A stretch of DNA of 64,000 bases. It comes from Hoplostethus atlanticus (taxonomy: Eukaryota; Chordata; Actinopteri; Trachichthyiformes; Trachichthyidae). Both the position numbers and the translations under genes were made by a program. Numbering within the stretch: position 1 is the first letter of the stretch; every line of letters begins with the position of its first letter. The stretch is taken from NCBI GenBank assembly GCA_034670405.1, contig JAXDDX010000035.1, positions 2,303,001-2,367,000 of the forward strand. The letters are read 5' to 3'. Of the stretch, positions 9,420-24,414 are shown one piece after another. The notes under the pieces were generated by a model. The model had not been told where the DNA came from. It searched no databases and was given only the letters and a program-made list of their open reading frames with translations.

Positions 9420-9656
9420 ATCAGTCCTCGCTCAGCTTCCTGATTGGCTTGTTTTCATCCAGCGTTCCTTTACCCCCACTCTCTTAAAAAACAGCACGTG
9501 GGTCTTAAATTGCATTACAGTAAGTCTGCATCATACTGTAAGTGTAGCTCATCTGTGTGGAGAGCAATTGATCTGGACTGGTCTGCAGCGAAATGTACTG
9601 TAGCTTCAAGTCCTCTGTGCTTGAGTTCGACTAATCCTGACGATGTATTCATTCAG
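9420..9656 (+). other. candidate 5' exon with perfect donor
   Basis: ATTCAG followed by GTAAGT at 9657 is an ideal 5' splice site. A frame open from an ATG at 9444 reaches the donor in phase 0 (ending ...DDVFIQ). The next supported exon, at 11523, is open in phase 0 from its first base (ISFQRFSLT before its first Met). The two could therefore be joined, or this may be an untranslated exon. The peptide resembles nothing I know and the left boundary is not defined. Confidence 0.25.
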
Positions 9657-11522
9657 GTAAGTCAAAACCTCCTCATTGATTTAACCTTTTTATGTTTATA
9701 TTCATACATAACATTTTACATATATAACATACATTTTGCATGGAAAATGTTCTTCATTATTTATCCCCTCTCCATTTTAATCTGAGGTTCTTGTAAAATG
9801 CATGATGTGTTTTTCTGCTCAGTTATGTGATTCTGTTTGTGTGTATTTGAAAGTGTGCACATGTGTGTGTGTGTGTGGGTGTGTGTGGGTGTCTGTAGTT
9901 CTGGTAAACAGATAAACAGAGAAACACAGAGAGGGAGAGAGAGATGGAGTTGTGTTTATCCAGCAACATCTGTCATGCATGTCAGGTTGTTTTAAGGCAG
10001 TGGCCTGTTAAACCTAACACTGATTTATAAATGGGGCATGTGGAACAGAGTCATGTTTTAGGGAGGGATTAGGGGCATACAAGAAAACACATTTTATTAT
10101 TTTATATTGTTTATAAGTTAGCAGCACAGAACATTTAAAACTGTGTAATTGGGATATTATAAAAGAAAAGTTCTATTCTAAAAAACTATATATCCATTCA
10201 GGGAAGAGACATAAAAAAGGTATTACCCACTATTCTTTTAAACTAATTTGTTTGTGCTATATATAATTGTATATATTTAGACTTAAAATAGTGGTGACCT
10301 CATTGTTTAACTTAAACTCTTAGGGTATAGCACTGTACTACTCTGTCCTAAATACTAGTAATCTGGTCAACATGCACTGCTGTTAGTATTAGATGACCAG
10401 AGGAGAGGATGGGGGTTGATGGAGCAATCCCCACCGTTACACCCAAACAGGAGCGGTGCTGTCTGGGTGGCTGTGGGGCCAGACGGTGTTGGCATGGCCT
10501 GAAAGGAGCGGTGGCCCTGCTGCATGTGCCAAGCGGTGTCAGGCTGCCCCTGGCTTTCACAGCATGTTTCACACTCGAGGTTGAGAACAGAGGACCAGGA
10601 ATACATTAGACAAATCTGTTGCATCATATGGCGTGTCTCTGGATGCAGTTTTACCGAGAAGCTTTGAGCCTTTTTATAATCATCACGATTTTTGTCTTAT
10701 CTCAAATGCCACCGATATTATCGATTTGATTTAAATCATCTAATTGATTTAAATCTGTTGCTCCTTACAGACTTGTTGCTGCCAAACAGGGGATTGATTT
10801 CTCTTAATCCTTATTTAACCTGGCAAGACAACATTCATATTTACAGACGTTACTGAGCAGTCACTGAGCAGCTACACTGGAGCAGTTGGGGATCCAATGC
10901 CTGGCTCATGGGTGCCCTATGAAGAGTTCATTTTCCCACCAGTTCTGGTGACTTTCCGGCCACAAACCGGCTTCTCAGACCTTTAGGCTACTGCTGTCCC
11001 CGTTCTTTGATCTCGCCATTGATGTCGTGGTTATGCCCTCAAACCATCTCTCCTTTCCCGCTCACTTACATCCACTTTACTCAGTAGGTTTGTGGTTAGA
11101 AACCCTTTCTCTGTGAGCCAGACACCCTGGAATGCACAGCTGTTTTGCAGTATTACACAGTATAAATTTTACACTGAAGCTCAAGATCCATCATATACAG
11201 CAAGGATACGTGTCCACAGTCTCCTATTTGTATTTTTTATTGCCTAATAATTGTGATTTGTAACTATCTTTTTCCATTAACTAGAATGTAGTTCTACACA
11301 ATACTACAGTAAATATTCACTTCAACATATACTGTAGCTGTGGTTTTGTTGCTAGGTTGATCTATAATGAATTATACTGTATAATCATGATAATTTTATA
11401 TTATATACTGTGAAGCTACATGTCACTACAGTGCTATGATGTTGGTATTGGACATTTAGAGTACAAATAATGTGTCTTTCAAACATTTGCACCGTATATG
11501 ATTTTCCTACTTTCCTTTCCAG
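9657..11522. other. probable intron upstream of the alternative nav1 exon
   Basis: AT-rich, with short TG tracts near 9858-9890. A GC-richer island at about 10400-10600 holds overlapping open frames on both strands, none recognised. A run of GATTTGATTTAAAT-type sequence lies near 10720-10755. It ends in the polypyrimidine tract and AG at 11521-11522. Confidence 0.5.
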
Positions 11523-12313
11523 ATCTCATTCCAGCGCTTCTCCCTGACCATGAGCGGTGGAGTGAATATCAAGACAACGTCTCAGACCCTGAATGCCACA
11601 GGTGTCAGCTCTCGTCTACCTTTGCCTCGAGGCACGACGTCCCTCTCCAAGATGGATCCCAAACAACAACACGGTGGCGTCCTCAATCCCACGGCGCAGT
11701 TTCAGCACGCCACCAAAAGACGGCCTTCCTGTTCTTCATCGCCGGTTTCCTCCGTTCCTAATGAGCTGCTGAGAGGCACGGCGCTCAAGAACCACCTGCT
11801 GCAGCAAAGGGCTGGTCTCTATTCTCCGAGAACGCCGGCGGCTACAGAGCGAACCAATGGAACATGCTCGGCATACAGCAGCCCTCAAGTACCCAAGAGG
11901 GAAGCCCCACGCTCCAAGGACACACTGGACCTCCGCACCTGCACACTGACCCATAAGGCTTTGCGAGACTTCCAAATAAGGCGAAATACAAACAAGAACT
12001 GGACCTTTGGAAAATATCGTCACAGGAGTGTGGACAATGCACATGAGGAGGACGCCATTTGCAAGCTCTCAAATGATGCCCAGTTAGGCCACGATAGAGG
12101 CCGGCTCTCTCATATAGGTGGAAATGGGAATGTGATATCTGGGATTCCTTCGACTGGAATAGGGAGCATCCAAAAACAGAGAGGGAACATCTGCAACCAG
12201 GAAGTGGGGGCTTCTGAAGGAGGAAAATCTAGTTATCAGACATCCATTGTGCCACACAGAGGGAGTGAGCCGGGCAGAGTGAACATGGCCACTGTTGCTC
12301 CCTTCAGGTTCAG
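11523..12313 (+). CDS. nav1: nav1 alternative N-terminal exon A
   Basis: A long open exon with a polypyrimidine tract and AG before 11523 and a CAG-GTGAGG donor after 12313. Translation can start at 11550, where GACC precedes the ATG, giving 254 complete codons. The frame is also open back to the acceptor, so this Met could be internal. The peptide is basic and Ser/Thr-rich. It ends in ATVAPF (residues 247-252), the hexapeptide I recall in NAV2 and NAV3 shortly before their LRQNLEETMSSLRG block. It also has SRLP (21-24) and SGIP (197-200), which fit the EB-binding SxIP/SxLP pattern. The last two bases (AG) join the next exon as Arg. I infer an alternative nav1 start used instead of exon 1; a separate upstream gene is the other option. 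Confidence 0.7.
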
Positions 12314-12523
12314 GTGAGGGCAGTGTTTCTCCTTTTAAGATGGGGAAGATAAGCTGCTTCAGCTTGAATGTGATACTTCACCCAGAAGTGTTTCATCTTA
12401 TTAATACTCATCTATGTGTAAAAATGATTGGCCATTCTCAGTAAAACTCAATCAAAATGCCGTCTGGTTTTTGTTTGTTTTTATGTCCATTAATTAATGT
12501 TTGATCATGTTTGTCGTTTGTAG

Positions 12524-12612
12524 GTTTCAAGTCCAGGAGGACACCGATGCCTCCCTAGATGATCTGAGTGACTGTTCCTCTGACTCCATGGAGGTGTGCT
12601 GCGATGATCTGG
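12524..12612 (+). CDS. nav1: nav1 alternative N-terminal exon B
   Basis: An 89-nt exon between a TTTGTAG acceptor and a CTGG-GTGAGT donor. It reads FQVQEDTDASLDDLSDCSSD then SMEVCCDDL, an acidic Ser/Asp-rich segment. Its donor phase (one base, G) equals that of canonical exon 1. Joining to the exon at 24312 gives DDL-DPESQRKRT in frame. NAV2 and NAV3 have an acidic GEDPE stretch at this same junction, which supports an alternative nav1 N-terminus of about 284 residues and an isoform of about 1917 residues. Confidence 0.7.
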
Positions 12613-17819: not shown

Positions 17820-18401
17820 GGAGACGGTGTGAAAACGCGGTCTGCTAGAGGAGAATGGTGCCTGGTTTAAACAGCATAGATTATGATTTCTCATCGCTTC
17901 CTTGCAATTCACACACTCTGCTGAGACACGGCAAAGCATCTTTAAATGCAGAAACGAGGAGGGAAGAAGGAGGGGGGGATGGACAGAGGGAGCTAGGAGA
18001 TGAGGGAGGGAGAGGCAGCAGAAAGCAGGAGGAGGAGGGACTGTTGTTGCGTCTGCCGCTGCTGTCATTTTGCTGCTGCGTGGTTCAGCGGCAGGAGGGT
18101 GTGCTGAAGGGAGGAGTGTGGAAAAAACGGAGGAAGGGAGAGCGAGGGGAAAGGGGAGGAAAGGAGAGAAAGAGAGCGCCTGGGCAGCACTGCAACAGCT
18201 GCAGCTGCAGCAGCCTGTCAGGAGGAAAGAGGGTGAGGAGACAGAGGGAAGAAAAGGAGTCTGTCTGTTTAAAAGGCTGCAGGATTGCCTTAGAAGCATT
18301 TGATGTATTTTTATTCATTCTCTTGACACGGAAGAGGGTTTGTCTGAGGAAGCCTATTTTCTCCCTGTTGATGCTTTTCTAAATGGTCTCATGCAGGAGG
18401 C
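17820..18401 (+). promoter_or_regulatory. nav1: nav1 canonical 5'UTR / first-exon leader
   Basis: A strongly purine-rich (G+A) plus strand with GGGAGG and GAGGAAG runs directly precedes the exon 1 ATG. Two readings are possible. In one it is a continuous leader; it then carries an upstream frame of 175 codons (17855-18382) that stops 19 nt before the nav1 ATG. In the other, the TTTTCT-rich stretch and ATGCAG at 18391-18396 act as a 3' splice site, leaving a 5-nt leader (GAGGC) joined to an upstream untranslated exon. The sequence alone does not decide. Confidence 0.5.
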
Positions 18402-19134
18402 ATGCTTGGAAATAACGTGAAAGGCAGAGAAGGAGATTTGAAGATGGAAAGAACGGATAGCACAAAGGCATACGGCCAAGCAGATGGCAAAGGAGTTGGT
18501 ATGGCAGCTAAGAGGGCCAAGTCTGGAGTGCCCCAGAGCACACAGAGGGGTGAGCTTAAGGTCTACCGGGCAGGTAGCTCTGAGGGCAGGCTACTAGTGC
18601 CCTCCAACCTCCGCAAGCAGAGGTCTTTGACAAACCTGGCTGTTCTCACTGATGCTGAGAAGAAGTTGCACCTCTATGAGCCTAAGTGGTGTGATGACAT
18701 GGCTAAGCCTGGAGCTGGGCTGACCAAGGCAGGCAAGCCCAAGACGGCAGGGGGCTGCAGCAGTGCCGGAGGGGGTGCCCTTCTCTCACGTAACCTCTCC
18801 AAATCCGAGCACTCCCTGTTCCAGGGTAAACCCAAGCCCTTCAGCCCTCTGGCTGCTCCCTCTGCCCTGAGCAAGCAGAGCCGCATACCTCGGGGTCCTT
18901 ATGCTGAGGTGAAGCCCCTAAGCAAGGCACCTGAGGATGGGAAGTCAGACGATGAGATCCTCTCCAGCAAGGCAAAGGCCAACGGTAAAAAGCAGGGAGC
19001 TGGAGCTGGAGGGGAGTCAGGTTCCAAAGGCCAGGGAGAGGAAGGGGGGGACAAGCCCTTCCTGAAGGTGGACCCAGAGCTGGTGGTGACGGTGCTGGGG
19101 GACCTGGAGCAGCTGCTCTTCAGTCAGATGCTGG
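18402..19134 (+). CDS. nav1: nav1 exon 1 (residues 1-244)
   Basis: Begins MLGNNVKG, matching the NAV1-specific start (MLGSSVK in mammals), with G at -3 of the ATG. Conserved blocks: LRKQRSLTNLAVLTDAEKKL (70-89), LYEPKW (91-96), NLSKSEHSLFQ (131-141), SRIPRGPYAEVKPLSKAPE (160-178) and FLKVDPELVVTVLGDLEQLL (220-239). SRIP fits the SxIP motif by which EB proteins recruit partners to growing microtubule ends. The first two thirds are basic and disordered-looking. The exon ends one base into a codon (CTGG-GTGAGT), so the next residue is Asp when joined to 24312. Confidence 0.95.
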
Positions 19135-24311: not shown

Positions 24312-24414
24312 ACCCAGAGTCCCAGAGGAAGCGGACCGTGCAGAATGTCCTTGACCTCCGACAGAACCTGGAGGATACAATGTCCAGTCTGCGTGGATCC
24401 CAGCTTAGCCATAG
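24312..24414 (+). CDS. nav1: nav1 exon 2 (residues 245-279)
   Basis: Reads DPESQRKRTVQNVLDLRQNL, then EDTMSSLRGSQLSH. It matches the block conserved in all three NAV proteins (LRQNLEETMSSLRG) and is predicted to form a short coiled coil. Acceptor CCACAG, donor CATAG-GTGAGT; it ends two bases into a Ser codon. Both the canonical exon 1 and the alternative exon at 12524 can splice into it in frame. Confidence 0.95.

Follow-up and report, generated by a model that had tools for sequence, protein, structure and literature searches.

Does the fish nerve-guidance gene nav1 have a single 5' end at its canonical exon 1, or does it keep a second, distal one that descends from the N-terminal region of the Navigator genes? 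The question is raised by a stretch of 64,000 nt (C35:2303001-2367000, in a genome of 632.8 Mb), hereafter the window, in which two open exons, A and B, lie upstream of canonical exon 1. The gene is named nav1 after human NAV1, of which we take it to be the counterpart. The name is backed by the match of its exon 2 to exon 2 of contigs C149, C9 and C144, which carry Nav-type CH exons.

We propose that nav1 has in exons A and B functional alternative 5' exons that code for protein and would represent the remainder of an ancestral N-terminal region after loss of its CH exons (probability of about 0.82). The evidence comprises the exon structure and splice phases, the conservation of both exons in a second nav1 copy, a junction as in nav2 and nav3, and the lack of any Nav-type CH match on the nav1 contigs. 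Judged from sequence, nav1 probably makes an overlooked second protein form and retains more of its original 5' end than the usual account allows.

Exons A and B and their reading frame

The following features of the window are considered, with a slash marking exon borders here and below:

9480..9656, forward strand: candidate noncoding first exon of the putative distal start; its start is arbitrary and its 3' end alone is defined, by donor CAG/GTAAGT at 9656
11523..12313, forward strand: exon A, 791 nt, start Met at 11550; acceptor TTTCCTTTCCAG/A, donor CAG/GTGAGG, phase 2
11610..11621, forward strand: SRLP, a [ST]-x-[IL]-P motif and candidate EB-binding site
12288..12305, forward strand: ATVAPF, common to the second nav1 copy (nav1b) and to the nav2-like, nav3-like and C144 paralogs, at the same exon end
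12524..12612, forward strand: exon B, 89 nt, acidic; donor TGG/GTGAGT, phase 1
18402..19134, forward strand: coding part of canonical exon 1 (proximal start); donor phase 1, acceptor-like CAG ending at 18396, homologue in nav3
24312..24414, forward strand: exon 2 (DPESQRKRTVQN...), which would be used by both starts

Exons A, B and 2 are open together in one of the three forward frames, with the junction ...EVCCDDL-DPESQRKRTVQNV, and canonical exon 1 joined to the same acceptor reads ...LLFSQML-DPESQRKR. Both exon B and exon 1 end in phase 1, and either can join exon 2 at 24312 in frame. The alternative segment counts 284 residues from the Met at 11550, and exon 1 counts 244. The preliminary description of two upstream exons that form an open segment of this length with the donor phase of exon 1 is thus confirmed by translation in frame to 24312. 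Its ATVAPF and acidic stretch ahead of the DPE block are likewise present, the former at 12288-12305 and the latter as exon B.

The rank of each splice site was taken among all AG or GT sites in the window; the underlying frequency tables are approximate, so that the ranks alone are meaningful. Exon A has an acceptor in the top 0.07% and a donor in the top 0.08%, and exon B follows with 2.7% and 0.9%, compared with an acceptor in the top 11.4% for exon 2. The length of the open reading frame was discarded as evidence of coding, being too weak: the longest stop-to-stop frame here spans 271 codons, below the maximum of 339 (mean 159) in 100 first-order Markov windows of 64 kb. Domain searches added little. 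Pfam (E up to 1) returned no family for exon A and two matches for canonical exon 1, both below cut-off, and the single match of exon A among PDB sequences has an E of 0.74.

Conservation in a second nav1 copy

Another nav1 copy is present in the same genome (nav1b, contig C27; the copy in the window is nav1a), with exons A and B ahead of its own exon 1. Its exons are listed here, with order and strand as in nav1a:

C27:787811-788751: exon A of nav1b
C27:789672-789763: exon B of nav1b
C27:799048: Met of exon 1 of nav1b
about C27:814219: exon 3 of nav1b

The nav1b exons encode MSGGVNVK..., RINMATVAPFRYR and RLQIQDSDVSVEDLSDCSSGSIEVCCDDL, in the same phases as in nav1a. Exon 2 of nav1b was not found on C27, where the interval is partly N. 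The match between the two A exons begins at the Met (MSGGVN[I/V]K), though the query started 9 residues earlier. It is the match of this second copy that lifts the coding signal above chance, with a local score of 260, whereas 500 shuffles averaged 42 and reached at most 71. Exon B scores 106 between the copies; its splice sites in nav1b are mediocre (acceptor top 23%, donor top 2.7%), and a strong acceptor precedes exon A in nav1a and nav1b alike. Among the conserved parts of the two copies are the blocks LLRxxALxNxLLQQ and AYSSP...DTLDL.

Identical residues are specified by 111 of the 258 aligned codons of the alternative segment (dN 0.56, dS 2.21), by 79 of 140 in its better-conserved part (dN 0.35, dS 1.84) and by 139 of 241 in canonical exon 1 (dN 0.40, dS 1.46), and the corresponding dN/dS ratios are rough, as dS approaches saturation and the codons were aligned with the protein as guide. 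Within these limits, the comparison shows constraint of a similar order on the alternative segment and on exon 1, and no more than that.

It is very probable that nav1 includes exons A and B as coding sequence. The least probable of the alternatives we weighed is that they constitute a separate small gene with a 3' end of its own. Although they lie 6-12 kb ahead of exons 1 and 2 and possibly have their own first exon, the phase-1 donor is in frame with exon 2, the junction is as in nav2 and nav3, and the two exons occupy the same place and order beside nav1b.

One block within exon A, ELLRGTALKNHLLQQRAGL (window 11757-11826), is kept in nav1b as DLLRDAALRNQLLQQVGAL and perhaps forms a short helix.

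Navigator paralogs: junction, CH domain and proximal exon

The preliminary description placed ATVAPF and GEDPE in NAV2 and NAV3, and both are present in the nav2-like (C9) and nav3-like (C149) genes of the same genome. In C9, an exon ending ...HPNTATVAPFMYR with a phase-2 donor is followed by a small exon ending ...PSIEDLS with a phase-1 donor, and then by GEDPETRRLRTVKN. C149 carries HPNTATVAPFMYR and GEDPETRRMRTVKN, and C144, the third CH-bearing nav paralog, carries HPNTATVAPFIYR and LIEVRRLRT. The phase-2 donor position ends the ATVAPF exon in nav1a, nav1b, C9, C149 and C144, and the block after the junction reads GEDPET in C9 and C149, LDPES in nav1a and LIEVRR in C144. A small exon that ends in phase 1 after the ATVAPF exon is seen in C9; C144 has a candidate only, ending SLDDLTG, and exon B of nav3 was not identified in the stretch of C149 that was read. 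The locus C144:744612-751705 is of interest by itself as a CH-bearing nav paralog with ATVAPFIYR and a diverged junction, with LIEVRR in place of GEDPE.

Since ATVAPF stands at the exon end in the same phase as in the paralogs, the splice point that closes nav1 exon A is homologous to theirs. The proposed NAV2/3-type junction holds in this respect, for the end of exon A and for the splice phases, but not as homology beyond the last 11 residues. These align strongly with nav2 and nav3 (11 columns, P 0.00023); the next matches comprise 45 columns around SGIP (P 0.021) and 21 columns (P 0.3). Full-length homology between exon A and the ATVAPF exon of nav2 and nav3 was rejected, as no clear alignment was obtained beyond the ATVAPF end. 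Exon B resembles nav2 exon B weakly, with scores of 22 and 26 (versus 106 between the nav1 copies). No further relics of the nav2, nav3 or C144 ATVAPF exon were detected near nav1 at E 0.05 in 264 kb of C35 and 43 kb of C27, using the last 260 residues (173 for C144) with the low-complexity filter on, a search that missed the known ATVAPF ends and is thus insensitive to short relics.

The CH domain of NAV2 gave 14 matches in the whole genome at E ≤ 0.01, distributed over C9 (4), C149 (3), C144 (2) and five other contigs (1 each, 28-36% identity). No Nav-type CH exon was found on C35 or C27 in this search, in which 25 candidates were scored and a very divergent exon could escape. In the window and the 200 kb upstream of it, the best E was 5.4 with the CH query and 1.6 with a longer NAV2 N-terminus. 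The idea that nav1 keeps an 'ancestral NAV-type start' is not supported by these results: Nav-type CH exons were found at three other nav loci and on neither nav1 contig. On this evidence, nav1 would keep no more of the ancestral N-terminal region than its downstream part, with a Met of its own.

The same failure to find CH exons at nav1 might suggest that A and B are a dead relic of ancestral NAV exons of which expression was lost. This is very improbable, given that the open frames, the Met, the protein and the splice sites are conserved in both nav1 copies. According to a 2023 review (PMC9877351), NAV1 has no CH domain, probably through secondary loss of its 5' end. Going by sequence comparison, this loss looks partial in nav1, as both copies of the gene have kept, under constraint, exons that lie at the ancestral junction.

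Canonical exon 1, described beforehand as NAV1-specific, turned out to have a homologue in the nav3-like gene. Between the ATVAPF and GEDPET exons, C149:829094-828404 (minus strand) contains an open exon, MKRGAEFSVYQGG...LRIKQRSLTNLTLLSDGEQ...LSQSEHSL...LDKEVILTMLGDLEQVL, with a phase-1 donor (C/GTAAGT) that is in frame with the GEDPET exon. It is matched by nav1 exon 1 with a tblastn E of 6.2e-12 and a local score of 174, where 500 shuffles reached 74 at most. Pfam (E up to 1) returned no family for this nav3 exon. Exon 1 of nav1 has no significant match between the ATVAPF exon and exon 2 of C9 or C144, an interval covered in full. In C9, the intron ahead of exon 2 measures about 85 bp. The nav3 homologue predicts a short nav3 form without CH domain.

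A different splicing pattern would join A and B to exon 1 and then to exon 2, giving a longer protein that contains both segments. Exon 1 would then be internal and symmetric (phase 1-1), with its Met as a second start. In nav1a and nav1b alike, the exon 1 Met is indeed preceded at 5 nt by an acceptor-like CAG/GAGG[C/G] (window 18397-18401; the 5 bases before C27:799048), in the phase of the exon B donor; compared with AG scores from the window, the nav1b site is a good acceptor (top 0.72%). However, the nav1a site is weak (top 5.9%), the phase fit is expected by chance in one third of cases, a proximal start with a noncoding exon could use the site equally well, and no pyrimidine-rich acceptor stands at the corresponding place of the nav3 homologue. 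We therefore regard this pattern as unlikely, though far less so than the dead relic. Exon 1 may also have a role as an internal exon of symmetric phase, or may be preceded by a noncoding exon of its own.

The simplest history is one in which the distal and the proximal start region are both older than the split of nav1 and nav3. We lean, with some reserve, towards a vertebrate Navigator ancestor that had a distal CH/ATVAPF start and a proximal one ('NAV1 exon 1') before the DPE exon. Of these, nav3 would keep both sequences and nav2 would have lost the proximal one, while nav1 would have lost the distal CH side only, the rest becoming a CH-less alternative N-terminus; the proximal exon of nav1 may also be internal and symmetric. 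With two ancestral starts and loss of the CH side only, NAV1 would not simply have lost its 5' end.

The putative distal transcript and known Navigator starts

Most likely, nav1 has a CH-less distal alternative start, the use of which we infer, beside a proximal start with sequence shared with nav3. After loss of the CH exons, nav1 would retain the exon with ATVAPF at its end and the small one that precedes the DPE block. A distal promoter is predicted near 9.5 kb, from which a noncoding first exon would be spliced to exon A (Met 11550), exon B and exon 2 (24312), skipping the proximal exon 1. The strong exon A acceptor together with an upstream donor suggests such a noncoding first exon. The donor at 9656 is the only AG/GT[AG]AG within 3 kb upstream of exon A and ranks in the top 0.03% of GT sites. 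In each nav1 copy there is only one donor of this type in the 3 kb before exon A, at a distance of 1.9 kb in nav1a and of 0.6 kb in nav1b. An open reading frame at 9444-9785, in the frame that runs into exon A, contains no Met. The putative first exons of nav1a and nav1b show no convincing similarity, and a comparison of the regions upstream of exon A for a conserved promoter in the two copies gave nothing convincing.

The predicted product is a Nav1 protein with a different, probably disordered N-terminus of 284 instead of 244 residues and an otherwise unchanged sequence. This N-terminus would have no CH domain and would contain its own SxIP-type motif. In the 2023 review, EB binding is associated with [ST]-x-[IL]-P in a disordered region, with a basic and no acidic neighbour (PMC9877351). 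SRLP in nav1a and SGIP in nav1b, both in the alternative segment, have a basic and no acidic neighbour and agree with the sequence part of this definition; SRIP in exon 1 is also a candidate EB-binding motif. With candidate SxIP motifs in both N-termini, both starts are predicted to give plus-end-binding forms.

No description of exons A and B was found in the Navigator literature searched, as far as its accessible text goes, and automated gene models may already list them. A mouse Nav1 knockout was aimed at exon 1, which is stated to be present in all 7 known mRNA isoforms, and Nav1 protein is reported to be absent from the knockout brain (PMC10584906). Wherever such a distal start exists, an isoform that skips exon 1 would escape exon-1 knockouts.

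The predicted distal form is like the N-terminal region of NAV2 and NAV3 (CH Navigators; UNC-53, Sickie) in having ATVAPF[M/I]YR at a phase-2 exon end, and the order of exons A, B and 2 is that of the nav2-like gene, namely an ATVAPF exon, a small phase-1 exon and a GEDPE exon. Unlike NAV2 and NAV3, nav1 has no detected CH exons, and its exon A is mostly unalignable and has its own Met. With canonical vertebrate NAV1, which starts at exon 1 and lacks a CH domain, the distal form would share the body from exon 2 onwards and a [ST]-x-[IL]-P motif in the N-terminus, whereas exon 1 would be skipped and its 244 residues replaced by 284 others. For Nav2, an alternative start upstream of exon 13 has been proposed to yield a shorter protein (PMC2843687). 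This proposed short form resembles the nav1 case in that one Navigator gene would have at least two 5' starts. Any homology of that start to the proximal exon of nav1 or nav3 is putative, and in the nav2-like C9 no NAV1-type exon matched between the ATVAPF exon and exon 2.
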